A stretch of 64,000 bases of DNA, from assembly GCA_964023205.1 (NCBI GenBank), contig OZ026850.1, positions 1,076,368 through 1,140,367 of the forward strand, written 5' to 3'. Positions 2,428 to 50,756 of the stretch are shown here, one piece after another. The translations under genes were made by a program, and so were the position numbers. How positions within the stretch are numbered: position 1 is the first letter of the stretch; each line of letters opens with the position of its first letter. The notes below the pieces were generated by a model, which worked only from the letters and a program-made list of their open reading frames with translations, did not search any database and was not told the DNA's origin. Source of the DNA: Lutraria lutraria. Taxonomy: Eukaryota > Mollusca > Bivalvia > Venerida > Mactridae.

Positions 2428-2611
2428 ATGGGTGTAGACCTTACAACCTACCGATGTAGGGTGGGAACGTTTGTCCCTCAAAGGGGTGCTGGACTGACGA
2501 TGATGCCGGTTTTTATTGATTTTAGCAAATTAGTGAAGCTGATTGGAGTCGTGATATTTATCAAAATGTTGTTGTTCCGGGCGGGTATAGAACAAAATCC
2601 AGGACCTACCA
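2428..2611 (+). CDS. coding exon 1: leader peptide ending in a 2A-like motif
   Basis: This exon encodes 61 residues plus one base of the next codon. The first half is polar (CRVGTFVPQRGAG). A hydrophobic stretch at about residues 35-50 (LVKLIGVVIFIKMLLF) follows, and then RAGIEQNPGPT. The C-terminal motif fits the 2A consensus D-V/I-E-x-N-P-G|P except that Gly replaces Asp. Such Gly variants are known among 2A-like sequences. 2A peptides make the ribosome skip the Gly-Pro bond, releasing the upstream peptide; N-terminal 2A leaders that double as signal sequences are described in sea urchin NLRs. The acceptor at 2411-2419 places the ATG 8 nt into the exon, and the donor is A|GTAAGA at 2612. 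Confidence 0.8.
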
Positions 2612-5600
2612 GTAAGAATACACATTCTTGTTTTTAAATTGACTTAATACTTAATTGATGAGCATGCTGACTGTGTATCATGTACAGTGCCATTTCTCCA
2701 AAGCAACAACCTTTGGGATCGAGTAGCAAAATTATGTTGTTGTTGAGAGGTTGTTGCTTAAGAGAGGTTAAATAAGTAGTTAAATTGTGCAGTGGGAAAA
2801 ATCATGCTGTTTGTGAAGGTAGGTTGTTGCTCAAAAGAGGACCTCTATGGAGAGGCTGTAATGTATAATGTATTGTCTTTGTCACTCACACGTCTAAAGT
2901 CATAAAATATATGCAATATGAATTTTATGCAAATTCTTACAAGTTGTTTAAAAACAATTTTTGTAAAATCAAAACCTTTTCAGACTTTTTGTCATTCGAA
3001 TCGTCTAACAAGGTCAGTTATGAAACTTGGCTATTTGAAAACCAAAATTTCATTTCCATCATTACATCTAAAATCAGGGATTAAAAACTGTAAATCTGGT
3101 TCACATCATCATGGTATTATATTCATTTTGTTTAGCAAGTATAAATGATATCAGAATGTACATGTATGTTGCATTTTTCGAAATTTCGAAGTTATAGATG
3201 CCTTTCAAAATCACAGGTCATTTCTATGTCAGTCATGAATAATTCAGTGGAGGCAGAAAGCTCTCTGCTGATAAGCCTCCAGTAGTGTAAACGGTACTGT
3301 CTAACTGTTGTAAATGTATATAGTTATACTAATCAATGCATTATATAAATCATTAAATGCTTATTCTGGAGATAATTTAACAAAACCCGTTAGTTCGAAT
3401 TCTGTAAAAAATAACACTAGATAAGATAATGCATGTAGTAAAAATATAAGAAATATATTTTATTTGCTCTAACAAATATTTACTTAATGCCTTTCTTAAG
3501 CTTCATCTTGTAAAAATCTTGTCAGATATTTTTTCTTATTTTCTGCAATGCTACATTTCTATTATAATGATAAGTACTTCATGATTAAAAACGAAAATTC
3601 AGGTGCGAGATGACGTAGTATCCTACAATTGTATTACCGAAAATTCAAAGAAGAATGTGCGTCCAAAAATGACCATATAACGCGCGCGTTGGTATTTGTA
3701 TGTCGGTTTGAATAAAAGGCTGTCAGCCTTTTATTGACGACAACGATATTTCCGATACGTCTTGAGAGTTTAACTGAGCATGTGCGCTGCCTTTCAAGTG
3801 AACATAACATGAGCAATACTTACCATTTCAGTTTGTTGACATTTTGAAGTATATTCTGACATTTGTAACTACTTAAAATCAACAGAACTAGTCATTTTCA
3901 CACCAAATTCTTTTATCTAATGATCTTGCCCAATGATTTTCTACTTGGTTTATGGCTTATCAGTGAAATGTTCTGCCTCCAGCTCTCGCGCTGGTCAGAT
4001 AATGATATGCAGTGTTTTATTTATAGTAATTTTGAAAGGGGTCTATACCCACTATAATATTTTAACCATAAGCTTTCAATGTGTGATTATATATAAACTA
4101 TTCATATAATTCATAAACATAATTTTGAATGTTCTGGAAATATGAGAGAAATTATCATTTTTAAATACCGATACGCACATAGTAACGCATTTCATTTTTA
4201 ACTTTTGTATAATTTCAGCAGCACCGACAATTGATACGAAAGTTGAAGATCAGACCAAGTCACTAGGAGAACCATGGGAACTAAACGTACCAATCAGTGG
4301 AGATGGTCCTTTTACAGTCAAGGTCATGAAGGATGATACTGAACTCATAGGGAATGATCATATTGAAATCTCACCCACTGCTGATCGTGTCACAGTTAAG
4401 GTCAATAAATTGATGATTGAGGATTCTGGATCATACCATATTGATGTGTCCAATGATATTGGTACTGACTCTTGCATGTTTGAGATGAAGGTTTTGGGTA
4501 AGTTACTTTTAAAGTCCTGTTGATTTGCTATCAGCTAATAATAACAGCAATGACAAATAATGCATAAACATAAAATACTTAAAAATGCAATTAATTTAGA
4601 AATAACTACATGTGATTTGATCAACAAAATCATTGTAAAAACAAAAAAAAAGAATATTTTATTCATTCTGGAATAAATATTTAACCTTTAAATTTAAAAA
4701 AGGAAATCATATTACATACATTACTCTTAAGAAAGATTATGTGTGATATGATAATGATAACAAAGTTAGCTATTTACTCAGTAAGTCATTTCCTCAATGG
4801 CATAAGCACGTATTCAATTAAGCAAGTAATTTAGTGTCTTCAAATAATTTTACCCTCAATGTTTCAGTTTGTCATGAGCATTATACAGTGTGTTTAGAAT
4901 ACTTTTGTATTTTACTCTTAATTTGGTTCCATTTATACTGTTTTACTCCCATCATTTTGAACTATGCTAATATTTTGGTTTAGGTAAATACAACTTTAGA
5001 TATCAGTACCTTCTAGTGGACATAGGAACAAAAGTGTTGAGGAAACTATTTGATTGTAAAGTTGGCAACAACTTTGGGCAGTACTTGGCTACTAACCCAG
5101 CTGCAAGTAGTAAGCTTACATCTCTGATGACTGGTAGGAATCGTAAAATAACAGTCGCCCAGGAACATTTACTACCACCTATCAAGGCAAAGCCTGTGTC
5201 TACAGATTTTGATATCACTCTGCTAACTTGCTTGTTAAGGAATGTGTGTGGTCTACATCCTCCAAGCAACCTAGCATGGATGAATCCAATGCCCACAGAC
5301 ACTTCAGTTGAGGCAACAATCACTCGATTAAAAGTTTGCAGGAACAATGTGAGTACCTAAAACATATCTAACTATGTTTATTCATTTTCTTTTATTTTGA
5401 AGTAATATCTAATCACACATAAGTTACATAACCTGGCTAAAATGGCTAAATCCAGACACAAAAATCGGCAATTTTGTGTTAACCAATTTCTTTTCTTTTT
5501 TGGAAGGTGAAATATTGGGATAAATTTGAAAATCATTAACGGAAATTTCAAGGACTTTTTATTTTCAGTTGTCACACAGTGGAACCGTGTTGTTTCCAGA

Positions 5601-8600
5601 AACCGACCTCAATGATAAATGGACAAAATTGCGTGATGTAAATATGAGATTAGATTCTATCTATGCCTGTTCAGTTGCTTGATTACAATGCTAGTTCTTA
5701 TTTTTCAAAATATAGCTAGGGGTTAGTTCCTGTATTTGTTTTGTGAATGATGTTTGGTAATTATAATCCTCTTATAATGCCTCACAAGTGTGTGGACATT
5801 GAGTTAATGTAACTTTTTGATAGTCTACTTCTTTTCATAGCACTGAGAGTACTGTCAGAAGCAAAAGTTAAAATGTAATTCATAATATCTGTAGATGTGC
5901 ATTAGATAATACCAAAAAGCTCAACCAACTCTAGGCACCATTTTTCAAACTCAGGTAACTGAATAATGGATATCACCCACATTTTGTCAGTCTGTGATAA
6001 TTATCTTTTGGGGGGGGGGGGGGGTTATTTTCATGAAACCTTTTGCTGCTATCTGTGTAACCTGAAGCTAGAAATATTATCTGTATTTAAAACTCACCAT
6101 TGAATTCTTAACTTAATATCTCAGTTCTCAAAATCAACCTCATGAATATGAGTGTGTAAATTATTTGCCCATGATTGTTATTATATACAAATGTATATAT
6201 CTTCTCAACCTCAGCTCTTGAAATGATTTCGCTATTCAGAGATTGTTGACGTCATCAGGACCATCAGTTGGATCCTTCTTTGATTTTTGTGAGAATGTTT
6301 AGTTGAAGTCTTAAGAAATATTCGCATAACAATATTATCTGATGTTTTGTATAAACTAATGTATCATTGTATCAAACAAAATACTCCAATCCATATTCAT
6401 TCTTTAGAAATTATATTTTCAGATTCTGTTGGAACTTAATAAGCATTGTGGTAAAGGTGGCTTCACTGACTTACCTGCATTAATAGATGCAGCTAGTCAT
6501 ATGGATATTGATGAAGAAATGCAAAATCATTTTACAGAAACTATCAAAATGTGGTATGAAAGTGATCAGGAGGTAAAGAAGTTACAAGATGAAGTAAAGA
6601 AATGTCAAGATGGTATTGGTGTAGTTGAAGAAAAAGTGATAGAAATGGCTAAAGATGTTAGCGGAATCAAGAGACACATAGAAGGTAAATAATTGTATTT
6701 CCAATGAGCAAATATTCCATTTATACAGTCATGTTTGGAAAAAATTGTGAGTTTTATAAATGAGTTTGTGAAGTGAAGCAATACTGTGCACCAGGTTATT
6801 TGGTATAAACTATATCAATGTAGTAAAGTTCATCTTTAGCTGTATATATGTTGAACATTTCCACGCCACCTTATTTTAAAGGCAGCCTAACAAAGCACAA
6901 TTTGTATTTATCCTGGGTCCAAAAGTTCAAACCTTGGTTGAGATGCATGTCCTCTTGATGGTTTGGTTGAATACATATAATGTCTAAGTCAATTAATCCT
7001 TCAAGTGGAAAAGTGAGCACAAACTTAGGTAGAGTAAGACTAGTAATGTTGAAGACTGATGAAAAAAAAACAATGATTCCTTTTGTACTTGCATAACTGC
7101 CAACAGAAATATTTTGTATAATGTAACGAATTTGTGATATGCTTAAAAAAGATGTATGTTACAATAACTAAATCCTTTTATATGTCCTTAAATTCAGAGG
7201 TTTATCTGTATTATCTAATGTTGTACTTGTACATGTATTGTCATTAGAACTTATCAGTTTAATTCATCTTTTTCATTCATGTATTCACAGCATTGATGAA
7301 TTTGGTACTTAAAACAACTTGAATTTTAAAACAATTATTTTGAATCCATTTTCAGACGAAGAACAAACAAGCTGTAAACGAGTGAAAGGAAAAGAAGGAA
7401 AATCGAATGTAGATGATGGTTCAGGTATATTTTATTCAGTAATGGGCCACTTACATATTCGTAAAATAATGTTACTAGATACATTTTACTTTTTTATTTA
7501 ATAATTAATTATTTGTTTAAACTATAGATCAGATTATTAGCAATATTCGTGTGTCACCCTCTGAATGATTTTAAACAACCAAAGAATAAATGTCTACAGG
7601 AACGTTCACGCCTATATGGGAAATGTTTGTAAATACATGTACATGTGTATATCTCTTTTTACTTTCTTGAAAGATCATCCCCTGAATTAATCTGGCTCTC
7701 ATAACTTAAATTATTTATCTTTTTTTGTACATTGTTACATGTATTTCCTATTGAATTTATCTTTGATATAAGTCTTTGAAATCTATGTAGCAATCAATAT
7801 CAAAATAAAAATAATATTTTCAGATATTAGAGAAAAGCTGATAAGAATTTATGAAGAAGATTGTTCCACCTTGTCAGTGTCTCCTTTGTTTGAAGATGAG
7901 ACTACTGATCTTTTAAAAGTCTATAAGAACCCGACTATGTTTCGGGTTAATTATAACAAAGAACAGAGAAAGGAAAACAGTAAACATGAACGTCGAGAAG
8001 AAAAAACAAAAGATGATAAAAAGGTTATATCATCTTATCAAGATATATTTTGCAAGGAAGACAGTCTGTGTAAGAAAATTTATGTTACGGGAAATGCCGG
8101 TGTAGGTAAAACATCTGAATGTAAACGAATGTGTCTGTTATGGTGTAAATCAAAGTTAAATAATCAAATTGAAGGCATAAACGATGACAAAGGCAATGAA
8201 CGCATAAAAACTGACAGTCAGTACATGTCTAGATTTGATTTTGTGTTTTATGTGACTCTACGTGACACTGATTTAATCGATGTTAATTCTATGATTGTTG
8301 AACAGTTATTTTATACAGATAATGATAAAGAAAGGGATGAAATGTACAAGCGCATAAAACATATTCTGATGAACAAAGATTGCCTTGTTATATTGGATGG
8401 TTTTGATGAATGGATGCCTAAGATGGTTGGAAAGAAGAAATATGACAAACCCCCCTGCATCAATTCTGAGAAATGTGTCGTATTGACAACTTGTAGACCG
8501 TACAAAATCAATAATACGAAATTGTCGCCTACTGAGATAGATCATCAAGTTCAGATTACTGGTCTTGATTCTAACTCTTCATATGCTTATGTTGAATATT

Positions 8601-10552
8601 TAGTAAAGTATACGAATGAGGCAAATCATGATAGCAAAAATCCAGATGAATTCGTCGAAGATGTACGGAAATATAAGCTTGATGACTTACTATGTATTCC
8701 AATGATTGCTTCACACTTGGTGGTGCTTTGGTTTGATAGAGGGTTAACTAAAGTATCTGTAGCACATATTTATTCACACATACTAGACATGCTTTTTGAA
8801 AGAGCTGAAAAAAGAGAAGTCAGTATTCCAAAATCAGCAGGAGGAGAACATCAACTACCAGATTCCCTTGCAGAGTTTACATATTTACAACAACATACCT
8901 CTTTATTGTCTAAATTATGTTTACTTTCATTTAAATCATTTTTTAACAAAGATGAACGGGCTGCAAATCTTGTTTTCACTAAACAACAGTTAATGTCTGA
9001 ACCATATAACTTGTCCAATGAAGAAAGTGATTTTCTGTGTCAAATTGGTATTTTGTCCAAAAAGAAAGTGATAGGGCATTATTTGAAACAAAAGCAAAAA
9101 ATGTCATTTATTCATAAGAGTTATATTGAATTTTTGGCTGCATTTTTTGTATCAACATTTGACAAAAATAATCATTTTGATGACATTATTAATGAATGGA
9201 CCTGTGTTAAAGATGTTGTACAATATGATAACTTCTTTCTCTTACTTACTGGATTTTCTTATCAAAAAACGAATATTTTGCTTGAGAAAATGTACCAATC
9301 TATATCAGATCATTTACATTTATGTAGAAAAAAATCTAAATTTCATGTTGATTATGATGATTATTATTTTGATGATTTTGATGATAATTACCGAGAACAG
9401 ATCAAAGCACTACTAATTATGATTGTCAGACTTTTCATTAAGGTCAGGAAATACAATGAACAAGATTGTAGACTTCTGATTGAAGATTTTGTTGATATTT
9501 ATTATTTTTATGATGGTGCTTATTATAATGATGTTGATTATTATGGTTATGTTGATTGTTTGAAACAACTTCTATTGTTAAATACAACATGTATAAAGTC
9601 AATATTTTCAGATAAATATTATGATGAGTTTGATAAAATCCATAGTCTGCAATATCTTAGTATAGAAGTGTCTGCTGATGACGTTGAAAAGTTCACTAAG
9701 TGTATACAGAATAATTCAGAACTGCACACTCTTTGTTTTAGAGGTCATTATACATTGATACCAGAATTACCTGTGAGAAGTCTCCATCATCTGACATCAT
9801 TGTCTCTGTGTGCTATTGAAATACAACATAAAAGTTTACATGATCTGGTGAAATTTCTGTCTGACAATGTTCTCATTGAAAATATAAAATTGTCTCAGGT
9901 GTCTTGTGTTAATCACCAGGATGATAATAGTGACTGGTATAATGATGATAGTGACTGTACATTGACTCTAAATCTTCCACAACATACAAAACTTACTTCA
10001 TTATATCTGCGGAGTGTTAATATTTTATGTAACAATGTAAACAGTTCTAGTTTACAGTCCTTCACATTGTGGTCATTATCTGAGAGGATTGTTAGACTTT
10101 GTTGTAGTGATTTATTTAATTGTATAAGGTATTCACAACTTGAAAAACTTTGTGTCTATGGTTTTTCTTACATGTTAGATAAGAAAACAATGAAAACATT
10201 GACATCATCTGTGAAATCTCTTCCATGTATCAAGGAGCTAAAACTTACGAACATGAAGTTACCTGATGATATTTCATTACAACTACATCCTCAGGTAACA
10301 CAAGCGAAGATACAGCTGTATAAGGTCACAATGAGTCGTCAATGTTTTCAATGTTTTATTGAAAGTTGTGTGAACACTAAATCTGAGATAAAAGTTGAGT
10401 TACGTTTTTGTCAGATTACATCAGTTGATGGAGAAACTCACAGTGAACTGTCAATGTCCGAGTCTTGGAAATACATGTTTAAATATCTTGAATCAATATC
10501 TACAATAGACATCACACGTAAAGATAACAAGTTACGCTTTATTAGTAATTAG
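2428..10552 (+). CDS. NLR-type protein: 2A leader - Ig - HEPN (DZIP3-like) - coiled coil - NACHT - LRR-like
   Basis: Seven exons (2428-2611, 4219-4497, 4984-5348, 5569-5637, 6423-6684, 7356-7424, 7824-10552) have consensus GT/AG borders and compatible phases (1,1,0,0,1,1). They give 3957 nt, 1318 residues plus TAG. Seen domains: leader with NPG|P at residues 57-60; I-set-like Ig about 62-154; HEPN about 155-305; coiled coil about 348-387; NACHT with Walker A GNAGVGKT at 499-506, Walker B LVILDGFDEW at 597-606 and a sensor-like TTCRP near 630; helical region ending FIHKSYIEFLAAFF near 838-851; LRR-like repeats from about 1020. STAND/NACHT proteins act as nucleotide-switched, self-assembling sensors. 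HEPN domains are often RNases, and DZIP3-like HEPN modules are common in bivalve proteins. Role as a cytosolic innate immune sensor/effector is inferred. The ATG has a purine at -3 and G at +4, just after a splice acceptor. The exon model is ab initio and lacks RNA support. Confidence 0.85.
2685..2862 (+). mobile_element. MITE family A (CAGTACAACCTCTC ends), intron copy
   Basis: Sits in intron 1 of the NLR gene. It has the family's internal text (aaagcaacaacctttggga, gttgttgagaggttgttgct, gtgcagtgggaaaaatcatg) between degenerate termini cagtgccatttctcc and ggagaggctgtaatgta. Non-coding. Confidence 0.75.
4219..4497 (+). CDS. coding exon 2: I-set-like immunoglobulin domain
   Basis: A symmetric phase 1-1 exon of exactly 93 codons, the usual organisation for an Ig module. 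The pattern PWELNVPISGDGPFTVKV, IEISPTADRVTVKVNKL, IEDSGSYHIDVSNDIG then a G strand fits I-set domains. The conserved B- and F-strand cysteines are absent: the F strand reads YHIDVSN where Y-x-C is usual. That suits an intracellular Ig fold as in titin-type proteins. The acceptor is cagcag, a NAGNAG tandem site that could add or drop one alanine. Confidence 0.8.
4984..5348 (+). CDS. coding exon 3: HEPN domain, DZIP3-like (first part)
   Basis: About 121 residues with the signature of DZIP3-type HEPN domains: LRKLFD near the start, TSLMTGRNRKITVAQEHLLP, DFDITLLTCLLRNVCGL and the final LKVCRNN. The acceptor is tttag at 4983 and the donor is aat|gtgagt at 5349, phase 0. The reverse strand also has an open frame over this region; it is a shadow. 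The helix-terminal Arg-Asn supplies the first half of the HEPN R-x4-H motif, completed by the next exon. Confidence 0.82.
5569..5637 (+). CDS. coding exon 4: HEPN domain, small exon completing R-x4-H
   Basis: A 69-nt, phase 0-0 exon starting LSHSGTVLFPETDLNDKW and ending KLRD, between ttttcag and gat|gtaaat. The first residues put His directly after RNN-LS of the previous exon, forming R-N-N-L-S-H, the catalytic-type HEPN motif. DZIP3-family proteins place a W-x(n)-I-LLEL helix after this point, which matches the end of this exon and the start of the next. Confidence 0.78.
6423..6684 (+). CDS. coding exon 5: HEPN end and coiled-coil linker
   Basis: Acceptor attttcag at 6422, donor gaag|gtaaat at 6685. 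The exon opens ILLELNKHCGKGGF, the last HEPN helix. It continues with an amphipathic acidic helix and a Lys/Glu-rich segment (QEVKKLQDEVKKCQDGIG, VVEEKVIEMAKDVSGIKRH) whose heptad-like spacing suggests a short coiled coil between HEPN and NACHT, possibly for oligomerisation. Ends in phase 1. Confidence 0.78.
7356..7424 (+). CDS. coding exon 6: short charged linker
   Basis: A 69-nt phase 1-1 exon between attttcag (7355) and tcag|gtatat (7425). It encodes DEEQTSCKRVKGKEGKSNV then DDGS, a hydrophilic linker. Because it is symmetric it could be skipped without a frame change. It is the weakest exon of the model since it carries no recognisable fold. Confidence 0.6.
7824..10552 (+). CDS. coding exon 7: NACHT NTPase and LRR-like C-terminus
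   Basis: A long terminal exon (910 residues) ending in TAG. After a basic linker (KEQRKENSKHERREEKTKDD) comes KKIYVTGNAGVGKTSECKRM (Walker A), then CLVILDGFDEW (Walker B, with the extra acidic residues typical of NACHT), VVLTTCRPYK and the QITGLD segment. The winged-helix/HD2 part ends with FIHKSYIEFLAAFF. Two Asp/Tyr-rich stretches (residues about 918-932 and 967-990) follow. Divergent leucine-rich repeats then run to the end (LTSLSLCAIEI, IENIKLSQVSC, LTSLYLRSVNI, IKELKLTNMKL). The exon is intact, without frameshifts. Confidence 0.9.
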
Positions 10553-11074: not shown

Positions 11075-11080
11075 AATAAA
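11075..11080 (+). promoter_or_regulatory. possible polyadenylation signal of the NLR gene
   Basis: AATAAA, about 520 nt past the NLR stop codon. The 3' UTR in between is AT-rich with no open frame. Earlier variant signals may also be used. Confidence 0.35.
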
Positions 11081-12239
11081 ATAATATGTATCTTTGATAA
11101 TCTCTTCTTGCTTGTTATTATGAGACAAATCAGAAATTTACCTCAAGATATTGCTAGATGACTTAATGTATGATTTCTGTCAACAAGAAACAACAAGACA
11201 TCCAGAGATGTAAATTGTAGATAAATTCTACATTAATGTACATATTATAAAACTACATGTCCGTCCGTCCCCTTAAAATCTTGCTCTATCCACAAGTTTG
11301 GATATCTGCATGATGATCCAATACCTCTTCACACGAACCAGATTATAAAACATAAATACTTAAAAAACATTGATTGTTGGGTGAGAACGTGAACTCAGTT
11401 GTATTTTTCATTTGATACAGAATTTATTATCTCCCTTGGATAACCTAGTTTTGACACAAATACAAAATTAACATTAGAATGTTTTCATACCAAGTCAGGC
11501 CCGTAGGAATCTAGTTAGATTGGGGGAGATAATTATAAATTTTGCCCGACATCGGAGGGAGATAGGCGTGGAGAAATATTTAAGCCTTTTAATTACCATC
11601 TTAATCAAAACGAATGAGGTGCTAGTACTGAGTCCCCTTCGCTTCTTACGGCCCTGCAAGTTACCTCACAGTCAACATAATGAATGAATAATGTTTGTAG
11701 AACTAGCTGGAAACAAGTGTTTCCCTTCAAAGATAGAAATTAAAAGATGGAACAAAACAGTCTATACTGTTCATAGAATATCGCTTATTACTGAAAAAAA
11801 TCTTAACAAAACTAAAATTCATTTATAAACCAAACGGCTTGAATTAATATTGTCATGTGCAAAGAACGAAAACTCGTTTGTATCTATATGAATTAACTTT
11901 AAGTTCATTGCCTCTCTTTGATGAACTTTTATGCGATATTAGAACATCGTAGTTATAAAACAATGTAAAACACCATCATCACCTTCGTTAAAAGCATCAG
12001 TAACAACAACTAAAACATCGTTGTCAATTATTTTCTCACTCATCGACAACAACATAATTATATATCACACAAACAACAGTATATCACACAAACAACATTT
12101 TGATAAGCAACAGCAACAACAACATTAACACAATCAACAAAATACTAATCGACGTCATCACAAATTTACATTTTCTGTATACTAGGTTATTTATACCCAT
12201 ATAGCGTCAGATACATTAACTTACCAATCATGAACAGTT
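11081..12239. other. intergenic, no gene; CAACAA-rich tract at its end
   Basis: No supported coding sequence. From about 11950 to 12170 the sequence is rich in AACAAC/ATCA trinucleotide-like repeats. The rest is unremarkable AT-rich DNA. Confidence 0.5.
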
Positions 12240-13808
12240 TAATACTAGAGTTATGTACCTTTAATGTTAGTACTAGAGTTATGTACCTTTAATGTTGATA
12301 CTAGAGTTATGCACCTTTAATGTTGGTACTAGAGTTATGTACCTTTAATGTTGGTACTAGAGTTATGTACCTTTAATGTTGGTGTTAGAGTTATGCACCT
12401 TTAATGTTGGTACTATAGGTATGTACCTTTAATGTTAGTACTAGAGTTATTTATCTTTTATGTAAGTACTAGAGTTATGTACCTTTACTGTTGGTACAAG
12501 AGTTATGTACCTTTAATGTTAGTACTACAGTTATGTACCTTTAATGTTAGTACTAGAGTTATGTACCTTTAATGTCAGTACTACAGTTATGTACCTTTAA
12601 TATTAGTACTACAGTTATGTACCTTTAATGTTGGTACTAGAGTTATGTACCTTTACTGTTGGTACAAGAGTTATGTACCTTTAATGTTAGTACTACAGTT
12701 ATGTACCTTTAATGTTGGTACTACAGTTATGTACCTTTAATGTCAGTACTACAGTTATGTACCTTTAATGTTGGTACTAGAGTTATGTACCTTTATGTTA
12801 GTACTAGAGTTATTCATCTTTTATGTAAGTACAAGAGTTATATACCTTTAATGTTGGTACTATAGTTATGTACCTTTAATGTTAGTACTAGAGTTATTTA
12901 TCTTTTATGTAAGTACTAGAGTTATGTACCTTTACTGTTGGTACAAGAGTTATGTACCTTTAATGTTAGTACTACAGTTATGTACCTTTAATGTTGGTAC
13001 TAGAGTTATGTACCTTTAATGTCAGTACTACAGTTATGTACCTTTAATGTTGGTACTAGAGCTATGTACCTTTAATGTTAGTACTAGAGTTATTTATCTT
13101 TTATGTAAGTACAAGAGTTATGTACCTTCAATGTTGGTACTATAGTTATGTACCTTTAATGTTAGTACTAGAGTTATTTATCTTTTATGTAAGTACTAGA
13201 GTTATGTACCTTTAATGTTGGTACTAGAGTTATGTACCTTTAATGTCAGTACTATTGTAATGTACCTTTAATGTTTGTACTAGAGTTATGTACCTTTAAT
13301 GTTGGTACTAGAGTTATGTACCTTTAATATTAGTACTAGAGTTATGTACCTTTTATGTTGGTACTAGAGTTATGTACCTTTAATGTTAGTACTAGAGTTA
13401 TGTACCTTCAATGTTGGTACTAGAGTTATGTACCTTTAATGTTGGTACTAGAGTTATGTACCTTTAAATTAGTACTAGAGTTATGTACCTTTAATGTTGG
13501 TACTAGAGTTATGTACCTTTAATGTCAGTATTATAGTTATGTACCTTTAATGTCAGTACTATAGTTATGTACCTTTAATGTCAGTACTAGAGTTATGTAC
13601 CTTTAATGTTTGTACTAGAGTTATAAACCTTTAATATTAGTACTACAGTTATGTACCTTTAATGTTAGTACTAGAGTTATGTACCTTTAATGTTAGTACT
13701 AGAGTTATGTACCTTTAATATTAGTACTACAGTTATGTACCTTTAAATGAGTACAAGAGTTATGTACCTTTAATATTAGTACTAGAGTTATGTACCTTTA
13801 ATGTTGGT
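12240..13808. repeat. 28-bp minisatellite, about 56 units
   Basis: Head-to-tail copies of a 28-bp unit of the form tactagagttatgtacctt+taatgttag. Variants recur in a set order, notably gagttatttatcttttatg followed by taagtactagag at about 12446, 12806, 12893, 13086 and 13176. That indicates higher-order duplication of blocks of units. The length is not a multiple of three and all frames are broken, so it is not coding. Confidence 0.95.
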
Positions 13809-13930
13809 TATACAACATAATAACTTATGCAAAGACAAAACTCATTACTATCATACATAGATAGAAAATCAGAGCAACATATGTTATATTCAATTCCAAA
13901 CCATTATTTCCCACTTCACGATTGAACTAT

Positions 13931-14017
13931 TGATTTAACCTCACTAAAGCAACAACCTCTCAACAATAACATAATTTTGCTACTCACAAAGGATGTTGCT
14001 TTTGAGAGGTTGCACTG
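13931..14017 (-). mobile_element. MITE family A, partial copy
   Basis: One half of the element only (atttaacctcactaaagcaa ... ttttgagaggttgcactg), immediately after the 28-bp minisatellite. Confidence 0.7.
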
Positions 14018-15480
14018 TGTATTCAGTTCCAATGTAGCGTGCATTTAACTAAGTTTAACTATAGAGACTGTGCGGAAACAAATTAATGAATAACCAAGAA
14101 ACAGTGTAAACACAATCAATGGTCAACTAGGAAGTGGTGTATTAAATGTATTTTAATTAAGCCAATCTTAATTTCGATGCATAGAAAAATAAACATTGCA
14201 ACATTATAACATACTACATGTATATTTAATTATTTAGACATTGTAGACATGAAGTTATTGATAGACGGTCATGGTGTACACTGAATAAAACCTTTACCCC
14301 CCCCCCCCCCCCCCCCCTACAAACACCTAGATAAAATAAGATTTATTGGCACTCACTAAAAAGGCCATTGATCAATTTAAACAGTTTTGAGCTGGTAAAT
14401 TATTACATGACGTTGACAGAACAGAACAGATACTTTATTACATGACTTGAGCCTCGGTTCATCATTATTTGCATAATACAAATATATACATAATTTACAT
14501 TCAACATGAATAAGTAAGGAACAAAAACAGAGGGTAAGGGAAACTAAATATGTAAATTAAAAATTATATTTAAGCTAAATGTGCAGAAATATTAAGAGAA
14601 GTTAATTAGTCATGTTCTTACCACAATTCCTCAATATATGCGGTGAGGGTTTAAAATTTTTGATCAATGTATTTTTTATATACTCTCCTCTTTCATCGTT
14701 ATATATACAAGGGCTGTCCTAAAGTATCACATAAATATTTTCTGTTTATATCAAACATCACACAATTTCCAAAAAATATACTTTTTACAAATAGTATTAT
14801 CAGAGACGTAGATAACATTATCTATGTCTCTTGTATTGTCTTTTCCGTGGTAAATACAAAAAAATAGTTGCGTGTATCTCAGATAATAATATGTTTGCAC
14901 AACGTTCAATACAGTTCATATTAATACAATAGACTTCATAAGTACATTAGTAGCTGTTACCTTTTCTATAAGATTGGTCCATAGCTCTATAAGAAAGGCA
15001 AACAATAATTAACGATGAAATCTGTCAGTGCTTTGTTGAAATTAGCATTTATTAAAAAAAAAATTAATCAAGATCGTTTTCCCCTCACAATTGTACGAAC
15101 TATAAAAAGTACGAAATTCATACAGGAAACTGGAATTATTATTATTTATTAATTAGTTTATACTTGACACAAATATACAAGAATTTAATTGAAATTAACG
15201 TGTGAAGTAATTGTCGATCCGACCAAAATGGAGGAAGTGTCAAGTTTAGTGATTATCACATGAAAAGGGGCAATTTTAAGAGGTGACAAATCACTTAACA
15301 CGATTTTAAATAGAAAATACGCCGCTGCAGGCTAATCAGATAATTGTGTACATTGTATAAAACGAAACGAAATCTAACAATGATCATTAGCTGTTCGAAT
15401 ACCGTACAGTAAATACTGACTGATAACATTGCTTACAATTTTTTTCAAATCCAGAATTGTTTTATCTGCAGAATTAGCGC
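14018..15480. other. intergenic, AT-rich; poly-C tract
   Basis: No supported gene. A C homopolymer of about 20 nt lies near 14297-14318. The stretch from 14410 to 14990 might be the degraded tail of a LINE-like element, but I see no reverse-transcriptase motif. Confidence 0.4.
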
Positions 15481-15540
15481 CATTCCGGTCATTTTCGTTC
15501 ATTTCAAATTGCGACAGTGAAGTAACAAAGGTCATCCGCC

Positions 15541-16005
15541 ATGTTTGGAGCTACGTCAAGTCCATCACGTGTCAAGGTCATGTCAGCTAAAAGAATCATC
15601 CTACGTCGAGCTCAAAACAGTTTCCGCCGTGCTTGCGATCAAATAGTTTTGCTAAATCGTCGAATGGAGGGTGTTTTGTACCGATATCATAAAGCGCGGA
15701 CGAATACAAACCGTAGCTTCCGGTATAAACTGCGCCTGCGCCTTGCGATAGTTGAAGGTGCCCGGAATATGTTTTATGAATATGCAAACAGAAAGGCTCA
15801 TGAAATTGTTAAACTTCGCCGTGATCTCTTCGGTGAAATTGTAGAAGTGATCAGCGATGACTCCGCGTCTGATCATTTCTACGCAGCTGATACACAAGAC
15901 GCTGAGTATGACGACGATGATGATGATTATGACGTCACTTCCGGTGAATCAGATATAGAAGAAAACGAAGACGAGGAGGAGATGGAAGCTGAGTGGAGTC
16001 CCTGA
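15541..16005 (+). CDS. intronless 154-aa protein, possible IER2/IER5-like immediate-early protein
   Basis: The ATG is in a good context (ccgccATGt). Residues about 15-100 are basic and helical (RRAQNSFRRACDQIVLLNRR, VLYRYHKARTNTNRSF, YKLRLRLAIVEGARNMFYEY, ANRKAHEIVKLRRDLFGEIV). The last about 45 residues are very acidic (AEYDDDDDDYDV, EENEDEEEMEAEW). The central pattern Y-H-x-R...R-L...L-x-L-x-L-V...AR-x-x-Y...A-x-x-E resembles the conserved N-terminal module of IER2/IER5, which are also intronless, but this is by eye and weak. If right, the product would be a stress- or serum-induced nuclear regulator. Higher GC than its surroundings and a following AATAAA support a real gene. Reverse frames over it are shadows. 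Confidence 0.75.
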   Translation: MFGATSSPSRVKVMSAKRIILRRAQNSFRRACDQIVLLNRRMEGVLYRYHKARTNTNRSFRYKLRLRLAIVEGARNMFYEYANRKAHEIVKLRRDLFGEIVEVISDDSASDHFYAADTQDAEYDDDDDDYDVTSGESDIEENEDEEEMEAEWSP

Positions 16006-18531: not shown

Positions 18532-19727
18532 AACACAGAACTTCACAATGAGATCCATCCGATGACTTTGGAAGAACAATGCAAGACTTAGGTATCAAAA
18601 TGGATGAGGGCGCGATGTTAAGGTTTACTGTTCAACCTAGGACTTTCCATTAAGTTGGCGACTTTTTAACGACAACAACGGTTTTATATTTCACTATTAA
18701 ATACAAATAAACTGTTTTATTCAAGGTCATTTAACTTTCTAAAAGCAAATTTAAAACGTTCACTTGTTACGCGATTAGATGTACTTAAACGAACCGCGTC
18801 GCCATGGCATTTAGCCACGACCTAAGACGGAATTCGGAAATTATCATCGACCTGAGGACAAAAATCTACGGACTGGTTCCCAATGACGCCTCTGCGTTCA
18901 TTAGGATCGTGGAACGGGTACCAATTTAACAAATTTCTTGCCTTGGATTCACGAAATTGAAGTGCACTTATGTGTAAAGTTAAATTCATTATATTTAGAC
19001 CTTTAATGCGACGTAAGTGGAAAGTGGTACAAACTGTAACGTGATTATATATAAGACTTTACATCAAGCGGTCAAATCAAAATCAATTTAATTATTGAAG
19101 ATTTAATCCGCGGAGGTAACTTTAGTCGAGATTAATGTAGGAATAATAGAATTTTGGAGATTTAAGCATTACATTAATTCCACGTCCTTCTGATATATCA
19201 CGTGATTACAGAAAACATGTAGGAGTGGAACATGTCGACATTTCGTGTTTTTTAATATAAAACTATATAATAATCAAAGATTTGGAGAAAAATTGTGAAA
19301 ATTGAATTTGTCGACATTTTGTGATTATTAATTAAAACTCAAAGATTTTGAGAAAAAATGTGAAAGTAGAATCTATTGACATTTTGTGTTTTTTAGTATA
19401 AAAAATAAAGCTTTTGTGAAGATTTTTTTAGATCACGCACAGGATAAAAACACAGATGATACAATCGACGATAAATTGAAATAAATCACTTTTTAAAATG
19501 TGATTTATGAAAAAGGTTACCACACAGTTTTCTACGTTTCGAGCAACTCGTTTTGTGGATTTTATGTTTTTTTTTTAAATTAATTTCATTATGAAATAAA
19601 TCTGGATTTGTTGTCACGTGAAGAAAACAACAATTAAATGTCAGGTAAATATGTTTTAGTTCTTTTTAAGTAGTTTTAAGTATATTCAATCAATTTCATT
19701 GTAACATTTATTTAAAAAATGTATAAC

Positions 19728-19889
19728 AGTGCAACCTCTACAGAACAACACCCTTCAGGATTAGCAAAGTTATGTTGTTGTTTTTGAGAGGTTGTTGCTC
19801 TTCAGAGGTTAAATTAATAGTAAAATTGTGCAATGGGGAAAATCATGCTATTGTTGAAGGGAGGTTGTTGCTCAAGAAAGGTTGTACTC
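19728..19889 (+). mobile_element. MITE family A copy
   Basis: Runs from cagtgcaacctctacagaac to ggttgtact. The interior matches the family (agcaaagttatgttgttgtt, gaggttgttgctcaagaaag). Confidence 0.8.
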
Positions 19890-22886: not shown

Positions 22887-23642
22887 CGTCAATATTCGAA
22901 CTGCTGTCGTATGATGATGATTCGATTTTTGTTGAAATTGAAATGTACGATACGATATATCAGCCGGACGGTTAATATCGGAGTTATTTAAATGAAGAAA
23001 CCGATTCGCAGCAGTTATAATTTGTAGTATGTTTGGTACTCCGTTGTCTGCGTTTTTAAATGTGCTGAGTGTATATAACAAAATGATTGTTGTCTTTCAC
23101 CGACTACATGGCCATTAACCACTTCTGTTTATCGATAATGGACAGAACTTCGATTGATTTAAATGTCAAAAGTCTTCTTTATATAACGTTTAACAGTACG
23201 TTATGGAAATGTGATTTCTGTTAAAATTTTGAAAATAATTCATTTGTGAACTTAATTGTTTCACGATAACTTGGTTGATAGTTTTTTTTTCATTTAATTG
23301 AAACAGACGTGAGTATTATAATTATTTTCTACACTTTATGTAAAATATATTCGACGGTTAAAATGACAAAAATTTATTCAATTACTGAATGAAATAATAA
23401 CAAAGGCTGTTGAAGTATTATGAATTATATATTTTTCTTGTTAAGTCGACTTTATTACATGATAAAGTATATTTTTGTTTGGCTTCAGAATTAATAGACC
23501 CAATGAATAACCATGTGACAGTCAGCATCGAATGGATGAAAATCTTTCCGCTGCATTGAAATCTTTTCGTTACATTGAAATTCATCGCACAATCGATTAT
23601 TTAAGTCACTTTCTGACTAAGTGAAAGTTTTACTTTTAAATT

Positions 23643-24365
23643 ATGAGCAAAAACGGAAACAAAACGAAGCAAGTTCACGGAACAGCTCCGAGGAGATCCG
23701 AATATGATGATGGAATTCTGCGTAGCAACCAGAGAACCGGAAATAGACTTAAAATGGATATGCACTATTACGACCGAGCACAGAAAGTAATAATGAAAGA
23801 CTTAGGTAAAGAAAGTTTGTTACTACAAAACAAACTGGATAGTGATCGAAAAACGCTTTCTCTCGGACTTTATGGTTCGAAACTTGGGATGACGTCATCA
23901 AAAACTAATACGAAATACACACCTACGTCACCGATGGGACATGTGACGTCATCAAAGCCATTTAAAGCATCATCCATGACATCGCACAGTCGTGTTGAAA
24001 CAAAATTCCCATGGGACAAGGAATCTATTGACAATTCTGACAAAGAGACATCAGTGTCCATAAATTCCTCTCCTCAGCACATGTCAAAGAACGCCATGAG
24101 GTTTAAAACGCCCACACCGTCTGCGTATTCAACGCGAGGTCAGCCAGACGACTTTTTAGCAAGTATTTTAAATGACGCCATAAATGACGAATTACTTTAT
24201 ACACAACGAACGGATATGACGTCACAGTATAAAATCGAAACACCAAAACCACAGTCTTCCAGACGAAAGTCGAAGACACCCAGACGATCGTTGGCTACTC
24301 CATTAAATGACTCTATTGCGAACGCTTTGATGACCGCCGGAGAATCTGACGAAGTGTTATATTAG
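23643..24365 (+). CDS. intronless 240-aa hypothetical protein with C-terminal LNDxIxxxL repeats
   Basis: I do not recognise the family. The frame is open from ATG (aattATGa) to TAG and reads like real protein: Lys/Ser/Thr-rich, no signal peptide, no membrane segment. The N-terminal part has YDDGILRSNQRTGNRLKMDM and a helix (YYDRAQKVIMKDLGKESLLL). The middle is low-complexity Ser/Thr. The C-terminal third holds two related short repeats, DFLASILNDAINDELLY (about residues 171-187) and TPLNDSIANALMTAGESDEV (220-239), each after an Arg/Pro-rich SP/TP patch (TPRRS, SRRKSKTPRRS) that could be phosphorylated. It could be a cytoskeletal or signalling adaptor; I have no basis to choose. Confidence 0.65.
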   Translation: MSKNGNKTKQVHGTAPRRSEYDDGILRSNQRTGNRLKMDMHYYDRAQKVIMKDLGKESLLLQNKLDSDRKTLSLGLYGSKLGMTSSKTNTKYTPTSPMGHVTSSKPFKASSMTSHSRVETKFPWDKESIDNSDKETSVSINSSPQHMSKNAMRFKTPTPSAYSTRGQPDDFLASILNDAINDELLYTQRTDMTSQYKIETPKPQSSRRKSKTPRRSLATPLNDSIANALMTAGESDEVLY

Positions 24366-32170: not shown

Positions 32171-32773
32171 ATATAATATTTTACACCAGAATGTTTTACG
32201 GGTACGGAATTGTAAGAATGTTTCCTTCCAATAAAATACACGGACCTGATAAGTTGCATTCATGCATTAGACACCTACAGGTAAATCTATATAACACGAA
32301 TTAAAACTTAAAAACAGAACTATATCCTGGCGCGAATGATTGTCAAACAGTAGGTGAATCATTATACGATTGTAATAGAACATTACAGACCCCGCTGTGC
32401 ACGTGATGTTAATATCATTTTTATCACCATCGATACAAGATAATTTAGATGAAAAATTGAAAATGCTCAGCACGATCGTAGTGTTGGTTTTTATGTAACT
32501 GATATCAGTTCATATAAATAGCATGGTGGATAAGTGTTGTGTAATCATAGTACTATCTTATCCAAATTGTGAACCAGAAATCTTCCAATATTTTGCCTCA
32601 CGGCAGAGGTTTGAACTTCATCTAAGATAATTAAGTTAATCGACAACAACGATATCGTTAAAACATAATTAAGCCAAACATGTTTCACGTTCTAAATTCA
32701 AAGTTAACTACATGTAGTTGTAAAGCAATTAGACTTTTTATGCGCGTCTCATTAAGCATCACTGCAAGACGGA
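32171..32773. other. intergenic, nothing recognised
   Basis: Unique-looking AT-rich sequence between two trinucleotide tracts. Only short chance open frames. Confidence 0.45.
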
Positions 32774-32973
32774 CTTGTTGATGTTGATGATGATGATTGT
32801 GATGGTAATAATGATGATAATGATGATGATGGTGATGATGATGTTGATGGTGATGATGTTGGTGGTGGTGGTGATGATGGTGATGATGATGTTGATGATG
32901 ATGATGATGATGTTGATGATGATGATGATGGTGGTGGTGGTGATGATGGTGATGATGATGTTGATGATGATGT

Positions 32974-33011
<38 letters not shown>

Positions 33012-33281
33012 GTGGTGGTGGCGATGATGGTGATGTTGATGATGATGATGGTGGTGGTGGTGATGATGATGTTGATGATGGTGGTGGTGGCGATGATGGT
33101 GATGTTGATGATGATGATGGTGGTGGTGGTGGTGATGATGGTGGTGGTGGTGATGATGGTGATGATGATGTTGATGATGATGATGATGATGATGGTAATG
33201 ATGATGGTGGTGGTGGTGATGATGATGATGATGTTGATGGTGATGATGATGGTGGTGGTGGTGATGATGGTGATGATGATG

Positions 33282-33312
<31 letters not shown>

Positions 33313-33543
33313 TGGTGGTGGCGATGATGGTGATGTTGATGATGATGGTGGTGGTGATGGTGATGATGATGTTGATGATGATGGTGGTGATGGTGATGTT
33401 GATGATGATGATGATGATGATGCTGGTGGCGATGATGGTGATGATGATGATGTTGATGGTGATGATGATGATGGTGGTGGTGGCGATGATGGTGATGTTG
33501 ATGGTGATGATGATGGTGGTGGTGATGGTGATGATGATGTTGT

Positions 33544-33575
<32 letters not shown>

Positions 33576-33675
33576 TTGTTGATGATGATGGTGATGATGA
33601 TGATGGTGGTGGTGGCGATGATGGTGATGTTGATGGTGATGATGGTGGTGGTGGCGATGTTGATAATGATGATGA
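32774..33675. repeat. GAT/GGT trinucleotide microsatellite, about 900 bp
   Basis: Almost pure in-phase (gatgat)(ggtggt)(gtt) triplets with recurring longer motifs such as gatgatgatggtggtggtgg. Both strands stay open for over 300 codons (Met/Val on one, Ser/Pro on the other) simply because the triplets lack stops. Confidence 0.97.
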
Positions 33676-34246
33676 TTGCTTATTTCGAGTCAACATTATG
33701 TATATAGTAGCAAATTCTTAAATCCCTCGGATGATAAGTAAATATAGTTGATGTATATCAGGTTTTGGCAGCTGATTTCTGATCATACAATTGTGTTATC
33801 TGTAAAACATTTTGCACAACAACGTGTATGCATGTCTGTGCATGTAATTTCAACGTTAAATAACAATCTATGCTGCATAAATAACTCCCATAAGAAACAG
33901 AAAGTATTTATATAACTATATGTTCAAAGTACGTTTTTATTCTTTATACAAAACATATACAATCAAACACTAAGGAAAGACAAATTATGGACTTTAGTAA
34001 CAGGTGCCCGTAATTCGAAGGTCACTTTGCTCAAAATGGCCAATTATGGCTTTAAAGAATGGCTTTTGTTCACAGAATGACCATTGTTAAGAGGTAGCCG
34101 CTAACACAGAATTGACTGTCGGTCTGATCAATTTATCCACTAATGAACTAGGAAGGAACATAATCAGACTAAATCATAATTAAACTAATACTTATATTTA
34201 TTCAGAGGTAAACATTACTGTTTTAGTGACTCAACACTTGTCAATT
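33676..34246. other. intergenic, no gene
   Basis: No supported feature; a short stretch near 34030-34110 recalls the ends of MITE family G but is degraded. Confidence 0.4.
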
Positions 34247-39716: not shown

Positions 39717-39879
39717 CAGTACAACCTCTCCTGAGCGACCCTCTCTTTAGCAACAACCTCCCTGCAACAACAGTATAATGTTTTCCCACTGCACGTTTTA
39801 ACTCCATGTATTATAATTAATTTAACAGCAACATAATTTTACTACTACCAAAGGATGTTGCCTTGGAGAGGTTGCACTG
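39717..39879 (+). mobile_element. MITE family A, intact copy with TA target duplication
   Basis: 163 bp from cagtacaacctctcctg to gagaggttgcactg, flanked by TA on each side. The TA duplication and CAGT...ACTG ends are the pattern of Tc1/mariner and pogo-type elements. No transposase is encoded. Confidence 0.9.
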
Positions 39880-39940
39880 TACATACTGTATTAGTAAGTC
39901 AAATGTCGGTGATTTACCTGAACATGTATTAAGCATAATA

Positions 39941-40686
39941 CAGTACAACCTCTCCAAAGCAACACCCTTTGGAAGAAACAAAATTATGTTGTTGGTCTAG
40001 AGCGGTAAAATTAGTAGTTAAATCATGTACATGTAGTGGGAAAAAGTCATGCTGTTGTTGATGGGTGGTTGTTGCTCAAGAGAGATAGCCGCTCTGGAGA
40101 GGTTGTTGCTTACTAGACGGTCGCTCTGGAGAGGTTTTTGCTTACTAGAGGGTCGCTCTGGAGAGGTTGTTGCTTACTAGACGGTCGCTCTGGAGAGGTT
40201 GTTGCTTCCTAGACGGTCGCTCTGGAGAGGTTGTTGCTTACTAGACGGTCGCTCTGGAGAGGTTGTTGCTTACTAGAGGGCCGCTCTGGAGAGGTTGTTG
40301 CTTACTAAAGGGCCGCTCTGGAGAGGTTGTTGCTTACTAAAGGGTCGCTCTGGAGAGGTTGTTGCTCAAGAGAGGGCCACTCAGGAGAGGTTGTTTCTTA
40401 CTAGAGGGCCGCTCTGGAGAGGTTGTTGCTTACTAGAGAGCCGCTCTGAAGAGGTTGTTGCTTACTGGAGGGTCGCTCTGGAGAGGTTGTTGCTCAAGAG
40501 AGGGCCACTCAGGAGAGGTTGTTGCTTACTAGAGGGCCGCTCTGGAGAGGGTGTTGCTTACTAGAGGGCCGCTCTGGAGAGGTTGTTGCTCAAGAGAGGG
40601 CCGCTCTGGAGAGGATGATGCTTAATAGAGGGTCGCTCTGGAGAGGTTGTTGTTGAAGAGGGGCCGCTCTGGAGAGGTAGTACTAT
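39941..40686 (+). mobile_element. MITE family A copy expanded by an internal minisatellite
   Basis: The left end (TA|cagtacaacctctccaaag) and first 130 bp are normal. The right half (ctctggagaggttgttgc) is then amplified, and the element closes near 40686 with ggagaggtagtacta. Confidence 0.85.
40085..40675 (+). repeat. 32-bp minisatellite, about 18 units, derived from a MITE end
   Basis: Units read cgctctggagaggttgttgc+ttactagacggt. Alternating variants have ttactagaggg, ttactaaaggg or tcaagagaggg. The open frame across it is a consequence of the repeat. Confidence 0.95.
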
Positions 40687-41418: not shown

Positions 41419-41545
41419 CAGTACAACCTCCCCAGAGCGGCTCGTCTGAAGCAACTACCTCCCTTCAACAACAGTATGATTTTCCCACTGCACGATTTAA
41501 CTATTAATTTAACCTCTCTAGTGCAACAACCTCTCATGATTTCAT
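41419..41545 (+). mobile_element. MITE family A, 3'-truncated
   Basis: TA|cagtacaacctccccagagc, then the usual interior up to agtgcaacaacctctca, where the match stops. Confidence 0.75.
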
Positions 41546-42447: not shown

Positions 42448-44046
42448 TTAACTTTTCCAGAATATTTCAATGACATTTTTTCTGTAGTCTTTATTCATGA
42501 TCGCGTAAATAAAAGGCCGAGTTATACTATTAAAGAAATAACTTCGTAAAAACACGTGATAAATGATTTGTTCCGTTCTACCAATTTTTCCCGGAATGTC
42601 CGGATACACGTATCTTAGCGTCACGATAATCAAAAAAGGGAGGTAACTCAACATAAACGTAAAAGTCACCACTCTCATTATTAACGTATTCCTTTTTATT
42701 GAAATCTCCTTGATACATGTAGGTCTTGGTTTGTCTACTAACTCGCTTGTTGAAAACATGTGGCTACCGTCAATACTGACACTACGAGGAAAAGAAATAT
42801 TTGACGCCTTAGGCTTAACATCACTAAATTGAAAGTTTGTGTAAGTTCCCGGATGTGAAAAAGGTCTAATGTTCACTTTATCAGGAATGCTTTCCTTCGC
42901 CTTACCTGTACTGTCTAGTTCAGTCTCTTGAAGTTGTGATTCTGCAGCAAGTTGCAAATGAATGTTACTTAAACTACGACTAATCGGGCCTCGCTTTGGT
43001 CTTGGTCTCCCATTGGACAATTCCTGAGTACATTTTGTATTTGAATTCTGGGATTCCTTTGTATTAACGACGTCATCGATATTCGACGGTCGCTTGTTCC
43101 TCATATACGGAAGGGCGTCATTGCTTACCGACTTTGATTTCCCTCCACAACAGACGGATCCAGTTATGGCTGATACTAAGCTATCTTTTAACATCCGGCT
43201 CTTTCTTCCCTTTGAATCGATACCGGAATGAGATGAGATGTACAGCCGGCGTCCTATGATTAAATACGTCACAAACAATGCAAAGAATATAATCACGTGA
43301 CAAATGAACAAAAATCCTTGGAAAGCATACGTCATAGTTGTGTCTTCATAGAAATGGTAATTCGTCACCAAGCAAGTTCGAGCCTCCACAACGGCTCGTG
43401 TTTCATTATGCTCTCTTGGCAACGGAATCTCGTAGCTAAATGTTCCATATATGAACATGGATGGCCACTGAGTGCAAATCCCGAGCATAAAGGCCCCAAT
43501 GCACGTTTTAACGGCATAAAATTCATCCAAAGTTATTCGCTTAAATGGACAACACACTAAGAGGTAGCGATCAAAGGCGACAGCAACGAGGACGAACGAA
43601 TATGAAGCTGTTGTGACGTAGGACAAATACCGGGAAATCTTGCAAAATATGTCAAAATCGAAAGAAATCGGTTTTGAAAGAATGACAATTTCTATCGGCA
43701 TGTTTACGGAACAATTGATTAAGTCAAGAATCGCAAGAGCTATTACGAATACGCAGGAATTATTGCGTGTCCACTTCATAGAGAAAACATAAAACACCAA
43801 AATGTTTCCAATTAGGCCTAGAAATATATAAAAACAAATAACGCACAAGGGATATACCATGATCCCAAACACTTTCTGCTCAGCAAGGTCGAAGTCAGGC
43901 CCAGATGTGATCACAGTTTTATTCAGTGCGGAGCTGTTACCGTGCTCTGATTGGATGATTTGAGCGGAAGTTGTCACAAAATGTCTACCGTCGGTTTGAT
44001 TGGACACAGGGTACGGAAAAGGAGATGTTGATGCCGACACAGCCAT
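42448..44046 (-). CDS. class A (rhodopsin-like) G protein-coupled receptor, single exon, 532 aa
   Basis: Start chosen at the ATG at 44046 (MAVSAST); an in-frame GTG lies just upstream. The N-terminus has three N-glycosylation sites (NQT 16, NSS 37, NKT 42). Seven membrane segments are visible: TM1 with GN 80-81, TM2 with D108, TM3 from C135 to the DRY motif at 159-161, TM4 near 180-200, TM5 240-264, TM6 457-478 with P470, TM7 496-515. C135 and C225 can form the usual disulfide. The third intracellular loop is about 185 residues and rich in Ser, Lys and Arg. TM6 lacks the CWxP signature (SYLP) and TM7 has RPFIY instead of NPxxY. It is most like invertebrate peptide- or amine-type orphan receptors; the ligand cannot be told. 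Confidence 0.92.
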   Translation of the reverse strand: MAVSASTSPFPYPVSNQTDGRHFVTTSAQIIQSEHGNSSALNKTVITSGPDFDLAEQKVFGIMVYPLCVICFYIFLGLIGNILVFYVFSMKWTRNNSCVFVIALAILDLINCSVNMPIEIVILSKPISFDFDIFCKISRYLSYVTTASYSFVLVAVAFDRYLLVCCPFKRITLDEFYAVKTCIGAFMLGICTQWPSMFIYGTFSYEIPLPREHNETRAVVEARTCLVTNYHFYEDTTMTYAFQGFLFICHVIIFFALFVTYLIIGRRLYISSHSGIDSKGRKSRMLKDSLVSAITGSVCCGGKSKSVSNDALPYMRNKRPSNIDDVVNTKESQNSNTKCTQELSNGRPRPKRGPISRSLSNIHLQLAAESQLQETELDSTGKAKESIPDKVNIRPFSHPGTYTNFQFSDVKPKASNISFPRSVSIDGSHMFSTSELVDKPRPTCIKEISIKRNTLIMRVVTFTFMLSYLPFLIIVTLRYVYPDIPGKIGRTEQIIYHVFLRSYFFNSITRPFIYAIMNKDYRKNVIEIFWKS

Positions 44047-47841: not shown

Positions 47842-48006
47842 TTCTCTTGAGCAACACCCTTAGGAAGTAACAAAAGTATGTTGTTGTTGAGAGGTTGTTG
47901 CTCTAGAGATATTGAATTAATAATAAGACATTACAGGGGGAAGATCATGTTGCTGTTGAGGGTAGGTTGTTGCTCAAGAGAGGGCCGCTCTGGAGAGGTT
48001 GTACTG
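47842..48006 (+). mobile_element. MITE family A copy, left end degraded
   Basis: cttctcttgagcaacaccct at the left, interior as in the family, right end ggagaggttgtactg followed by TA. Confidence 0.8.
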
Positions 48007-50637: not shown

Positions 50638-50756
50638 GTAAGTGACCTTGAACTTTGATAACTTAACAAAGGTCAGATATGTGAGGTCAGATATGGATTT
50701 GATGTAGTTAGAACGATAATTCTTTAACACGGACACGAGAGAATGAAATACACATA

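Follow-up and report, generated by a model that had tools for sequence, protein, structure and literature searches.

Why would an immune sensor shed its own N-terminus during translation? The question is raised by a gene of the bivalve Lutraria lutraria, located at 2428–10552 on the forward strand of a 64,000-nucleotide stretch of contig OZ026850.1 (assembly GCA_964023205.1, positions 1,076,368–1,140,367), which is called the window below and numbered from its first letter. The gene encodes immunoglobulin (Ig), HEPN and NACHT domains behind a hydrophobic leader that ends in a 2A/StopGo motif, the class of sequences at which a ribosome releases one peptide and continues with the next. Our analysis suggests that a cytosolic NACHT sensor carrying a predicted ribonuclease (RNase) domain probably sheds this G-type 2A leader, with the skipping itself predicted from sequence.

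A seven-exon Ig-HEPN-NACHT gene

The gene model, predicted from genomic sequence, consists of seven exons that join in frame into 1318 amino acids with a single stop at the end, and all six introns have a GT donor and an AG acceptor with the frame kept throughout. The preliminary description of this locus had proposed such a seven-exon model, together with a leader of 59 residues and a remainder of 1259 residues starting with proline, and both the exon structure and the arithmetic agree with our results. Exon 1 (2420–2611) contains the leader (residues 1–59) and the first residues past the predicted skip, with a putative coding start at ATG 2428, where the nucleotides at −3 and +4 are A and G. 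Since an acceptor-like ttattttcag, similar to the other acceptors of the gene, lies directly 5′ of 2420 (ending at 2419), an untranslated exon may precede exon 1. The predicted splicing then leads to exon 2 (4219–4497), encoding an I-set Ig domain, and exon 3 (4984–5348), encoding the first part of a DZIP3/hRUL138-like HEPN domain and ending with R274-N-N, which exon 4 (5569–5637) completes to RNN|LSH across the junction. The end of the HEPN domain and a charged linker, helical-looking by eye, are encoded by exon 5 (6423–6684), a further charged linker by exon 6 (7356–7424), and the NACHT ATPase with a C-terminal region containing degenerate patterns resembling leucine-rich repeats (LRR) by exon 7 (7824–10552), which closes with the stop TAG. 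The first AATAAA 3′ of the stop, at 11075–11080, is a candidate polyadenylation signal, and ATTAAA is also found at 10717 and 10869. No paralogue was found in the window, where tblastn of the protein returned its own exons and three matches with E above 2.

The Ig (I-set, residues 64–153, E=1.3e-11), HEPN (HEPN_DZIP3, residues 195–332, E=2.4e-26) and NACHT (E=2.4e-7) domains, all named in the preliminary description, were each matched in Pfam above the curated cut-offs, while no DEATH family was matched at E≤1, the N-terminal part being occupied by Ig and HEPN instead. The HEPN motif is Rx4–6H, typically with an N-type residue after the arginine when the motif is conserved (PMC3710099), and RNNLSH (residues 274–279) is an Rx4H of this kind, with R274, H279 and an N after the arginine. 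It is created by the join of exons 3 and 4, and therefore that splice is supported. A second HEPN-type match, Rx5H, was found at residue 240, and the domain is a predicted RNase. The NACHT domain combines its profile match with a Walker A motif GNAGVGKT (residues 499–506; 8090–8113) and a Walker B motif LVILDGFDE (residues 597–605; 8384–8410), which places it among the STAND ATPases.

The StopGo core and the predicted product

The core octamer GIEQNPG|P (residues 53–60; 2584–2607) predicts a skip after the codon that ends at 2604 and before the one that starts at 2605. It lies within the expanded StopGo core, (D/G/C/N)(V/I)ExNPGP (PMC12846837), in line with the 2A-type motif originally reported for this locus, and its NPGP (residues 57–60) is the single occurrence across the six frames of the window. 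Analytically, 1.0e-4 core matches are expected in six frames of the window, and simulated first-order Markov windows contained the core in 1 of 200 cases in one run and in 1 of 3000 in a second, in which no window had an ATG 25 or more codons ahead of the core with the frame open between them. A narrower G-type DNA pattern was absent from 100 shuffles. The degenerate DNA pattern for GIEQNPGP occurred in 9 stretches among 257 billion bases of genome contigs and in none of the viral contigs, counts that gauge rarity only and are silent on animal relatives, as the collections searched comprise viruses and prokaryotes. A chance motif was rejected on the expected count, the simulated windows, the shuffles and the single NPGP in the window, and the motif is not likely to be a chance product.

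Glycine at p12 is found in 1,207 of 2,465 viral octapeptides (PMC12846837), and the GxExNPGP of DHAV-1 2A1 is reported to be active (PMC6249498). The motif described here shares the GxExNPGP core of these sites but belongs to the N-terminal part of a cellular gene, whereas they lie in viral polyproteins. The core is preceded by MLLFRA, so that p11 is A and p12 is G, which resembles, by eye, the ending of upstream motif 5, described as (A/G/S)G at p12 (PMC12846837). In the sea urchin leader SpNLR2A6, importance is reported for R11, L13 and L14, numbered back from the last proline (PMC4981915); the arginine and the leucine pair are one residue closer here (R10, L12, L13), just as motifs 4 and 1 are described as being offset by one residue (PMC12846837).

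The Ig domain looks cytosolic in type. Folded alone from its single sequence, exon 2 gave an eight-strand model (mean predicted local distance difference test score (pLDDT) 80.4, predicted template modelling score 0.63), and the 50 Foldseek matches listed for this model had TM-scores of about 0.5–0.6 and were mostly intracellular Ig domains from titin and other muscle proteins, extracellular ones (DIP, Dscam, NCAM) being also among them. Searching the PDB with the exon 2 sequence retrieved 23 distinct chains at E≤0.01, among them the extracellular MDGA1, LRIG1, Dscam and VEGFR2; the best match was titin, at 3.7e-28 summed over a six-Ig fragment and 4e-4 for the best single domain. In the titin alignments Val and Ile stand at the B- and F-strand cysteine positions and Val at the core tryptophan, so the canonical Cys-Cys pair of the usual extracellular Ig is absent, as are one or both of these cysteines in some of the aligned titin domains. 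Extracellular Ig domains normally retain the B/F-strand disulfide. Without the canonical disulfide, and with its titin-like character, the domain would therefore be suited to the cytosol, fitting a skipped, leader-free product.

The leader contains the most hydrophobic stretch of the entire protein (LVKLIGVVIFIKMLLF, residues 35–50; 2530–2577) on the Kyte-Doolittle scale with windows of 11, 15, 19 and 21. Its hydrophobic part is interrupted at K37, K46 and R51, and the longest uninterrupted apolar run in the leader is LIGVVIFI, eight residues between K37 and K46. Since the ribosomal tunnel holds about 30–40 residues, the hydrophobic part would still be inside it when the ribosome stalls at NPG, and the decision to skip would precede recognition by the targeting machinery.

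Taken together, the gene would most probably work as follows. Ribosomes would start at 2428 and make the 59-residue hydrophobic leader, which at NPG|P would mostly be released without a Gly-Pro bond, and translation would then continue into a cytosolic Ig-HEPN-NACHT protein of 1259 residues with an N-terminal proline. Activation of the NACHT domain would bring HEPN domains together to cut RNA, as a defence against viruses or a form of cell suicide. The titin-like Ig may have binding partners such as the cytoskeleton, and a minor unskipped fraction would keep the leader and may reach a membrane. The gene model, the domains, the motifs and the lack of the canonical Ig cysteines are observations, whereas the splicing, the start site, the skipping, the RNase activity, the activation and the localisation are what we infer from them.

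Weighing the leader, the motif and exon 1

Several findings weigh against this interpretation, and they concern the C-terminal region, the destination of the Ig domain, the context of the motif and the codon usage of exon 1. For the C-terminal region, no LRR family was matched in Pfam at E≤1, and a PDB sequence search with exon 7 returned no match at E≤1. Within the C-terminal 378 residues, one leucine pattern occurred six times against a shuffle mean of 2.3 (1.85% of 2000 shuffles reach six), whereas a second occurred seven times against a mean of 7.6 (64% of shuffles reach seven). The LRR-like domain of the preliminary description is thus weakly supported, with one of the two patterns enriched; we call the region LRR-like with reserve, and its role as the sensing part is tentative. 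A fold model of this region (9485–10549) had a pLDDT of 45.6 and was not used.

The destination of the product bears on dual targeting as in the sea urchin, an explanation that overlaps with ours, in which a substantial unskipped fraction would be guided by the leader to the secretory pathway or membrane and do a job of its own, giving two working pools. For SpNLR2A6, an in vitro estimate puts recoding at about 80%, and with the wild type about 15% of the reporter was in the medium (PMC4981915), translocation into the endoplasmic reticulum (ER) can inhibit 2A activity (PMC2978324), and the hydrophobicity of the leader fits such a role. In addition, the sea cucumber AjNLRC4 is described as a membrane receptor with an extracellular Ig (PMC8699970), so an Ig beside a NACHT domain need not be cytosolic. 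Nevertheless, the Ig of L. lutraria is titin-like and lacks the canonical cysteines, and the leader offers a core of just eight uninterrupted apolar residues between two lysines, so that we regard dual targeting as doubtful. The chemistry of the Ig domain makes a folded extracellular role of the unskipped form less probable. The idea of two pools, put forward in the preliminary description, may still hold, while its secretory form is weakened by the titin-like Ig, which lacks the canonical disulfide, and by K37, K46 and R51.

The context of the motif raises the possibility that it is present but inactive, which would make the leader a plain N-terminal anchor or presequence and the protein a single chain. 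Upstream context is reported to govern activity strongly, chimeras being often inactive, and the exact context here lies outside those assayed: motifs 1, 3, 4 and 6 were covered, and motif 5 was not included (PMC12846837). Motifs with glycine at p12 favour P at p15 (PMC12846837), compared with the Q found here, and the motif evidence comes from one gene in one 64-kb window. The octamer and the A-G at p11–p12 agree, however, with the published class (PMC12846837), and the core is improbable by chance; an inactive motif appears improbable.

The remaining difficulty is whether exon 1 belongs to the gene at all. Its codon score is −2.6 in frame (−6.2 and −1.1 in the other frames, with stop codons unscored), compared with +13.9, +2.8 and +12.8 for exons 2, 3 and 5 under the same scoring, and at least this score is reached by 1070 of 4972 noncoding 180-mers and by 13 of the 57 of them that are stop-free. 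The codon usage of exon 1 is indistinguishable from that of noncoding DNA; a first score of +5.6, against a noncoding mean of −16.6, had been inflated by stop codons in the controls, and codon usage was discarded as support. What makes exon 1 stand out is the motif together with an open frame (57 of 4972 noncoding 180-mers are free of stops), a donor in compatible phase and the context of its start codon. The failing codon control therefore lowers our confidence in a self-shedding leader and raises the alternative of a stray exon, a fragment belonging to some other gene or to a 2A-bearing retrotransposon and in phase by accident.

In keeping with a stray origin, many non-long-terminal-repeat retrotransposons carry 2A-like sequences (PMC4981915), the codon usage is not coding-like, and the GC content of exon 1 (0.446) exceeds that of the other exons (0.311–0.420). 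It is countered by a canonical donor in the right phase combined with the acceptor-like site upstream, and by a blastn of 2201–2800 against the window, in which the exon 1 part gave just two matches of 14–16 bases (E 0.03 and 0.38) and intron 1 DNA gave many. Furthermore, the next methionine after Met47 of the leader is Met98, inside the Ig domain, and the protein without exon 1 would therefore need another coding start. On balance, a stray exon is rather improbable. A retrotransposon fragment as exon 1 was rejected on this search of the window, since the repeat copies start in intron 1 (from 2677) and exon 1 gave no more than the two short matches. The intron 1 repeat (2677–2800) is dispersed, with partial copies of about 70–89% identity on both strands of the window, at 13907–14018, 51482–51599, 19726–19841, 41480–41536, 47842–47917, 59785–59870 and around 39740–40084.

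The leader start (2428–2457) reads MGVDLTTYRC, with Cys10. A lipid switch built on it, with the unskipped form tethered to the cytosolic membrane face and the skipped form soluble, would suit a cytosolic-type Ig better than ER entry. MGVDLT matches the N-myristoylation pattern, but this pattern is short and prone to false positives, and such a switch is highly improbable.

Other features of the window lie downstream of the gene, beginning with a tandem array at 12239–13805 (28-base unit, 56 copies, 88% matches). Two open frames on the forward strand had no Pfam match at E≤0.01, one at 15526–16002 (159 codons, basic in its N-terminal part and rich in Asp/Glu at its tail) and one at 23640–24362 (241 codons). 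Five of the six frames are open in a low-complexity stretch of about 1 kb (32688–33718), and their translations are rich in His, in Asp/Gly, in Met/Val, in Ser/Pro or in Ile/Thr. A rhodopsin-family G-protein-coupled receptor reading frame of 547 codons is located at 42451–44091 on the reverse strand (Pfam 7tm_1, E=1.2e-20), and a doublecortin-domain reading frame at 50228–50638 on the forward strand (Pfam DCX, E=8.7e-18).

Relation to known systems and implications

NLRs have been named among the cellular carriers of 2A sequences (PMC11512398). In the sea urchin, 2A-like sequences at the N-terminus or close to it were reported for 85 of 241 S. purpuratus NLRs. Among 87 current NCBI entries, 14 were reported to have one of 26 residues, and 12 of these 14 were predicted signal sequences (PMC4981915). 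This substantiates the sea urchin parallel of the preliminary description. The gene from L. lutraria resembles the SpNLR2A genes in that, by the gene model, a NACHT immune protein begins with a hydrophobic 2A leader. It differs from them in the length of the leader (59 residues versus 26), in the core (GIEQNPGP versus D(V/I)ExNPGP) and in the architecture (Ig-HEPN-NACHT versus DEATH-NACHT-LRR). With HEPN and Ig and no DEATH domain, it would therefore combine the same kind of leader with a different NLR family.

That family points to molluscs. A 2013 tabulation of HEPN(DZIP3) fusions in animals lists NACHT and LRR among the partners (PMC3710099), the HEPN(DZIP3)-NACHT architecture is reported in Aplysia (PMC9334734), and more than 50 such proteins, with the HEPN N-terminal, are reported in pearl oyster (PMC9646362). 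Our protein shares with this class, which is overrepresented in bivalves, HEPN_DZIP3, NACHT and the Rx4–6H motif (PMC9646362, PMC9334734, PMC3710099), whereas the proteins as described in these sources have neither a 2A leader nor an Ig in the same protein. An Ig N-terminal to NACHT is shared with the sea cucumber proteins AjNLRC4 (PMC8699970) and AjNLR-new (PMC13133943), which, in the descriptions consulted, differ in having two transmembrane segments, no mention of HEPN and no described 2A; the intracellular Ig of AjNLR-new is reported to recruit cytoskeletal factors (PMC13133943). HEPN and Ig, there as Ig repeats, also occur in one bivalve immune protein in the HEPN-Ig-DED-TRADD-N proteins of Crassostrea gigas (PMC8195603), but these are described as TRADD-N proteins that have WD40 or cGAS-like parts in place of a NACHT domain, and no 2A is described for them in that source.

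The preliminary description had considered the Ig-HEPN-NACHT combination with a 2A leader to be undescribed. The combination was not found among the best-ranked open-licence papers, the main 2025 eukaryotic 2A survey lying outside this scope, and the claim stands to that extent, whereas the component pairs are each published: the 2A-NLR in sea urchin, HEPN(DZIP3)-NACHT in molluscs and Ig-NACHT in sea cucumber. What would be new, within the papers covered, is their joining. Newly recognised here is also an Ig without both canonical cysteines and the core tryptophan and closest to titin, which favours a cytosolic product.

As a further step, which we consider unlikely but worth stating, the leader may decide for each ribosome whether the predicted RNase-armed NACHT sensor is freed to the cytosol or tethered through a signal anchor or lipid; if that were true, a change in skipping, as under viral takeover or ribosome stress, would shift the proportion of free sensor to tethered sensor, and the gene from L. 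lutraria and the sea urchin cases together would mean that NLRs of different design in distant animal phyla had acquired 2A leaders, possibly independently. For the proposed shedding of the leader, residues 1–66 constitute a directly testable construct to understand why an immune sensor sheds its N-terminus during translation. StopGo sequences are described as rare in cellular genes (PMC12846837). If our explanation is true, a second NLR type, with a predicted RNase, an apparently cytosolic Ig and a G-type 2A leader, would make recoding leaders a repeated feature of invertebrate NLRs, instead of an oddity of the sea urchin.

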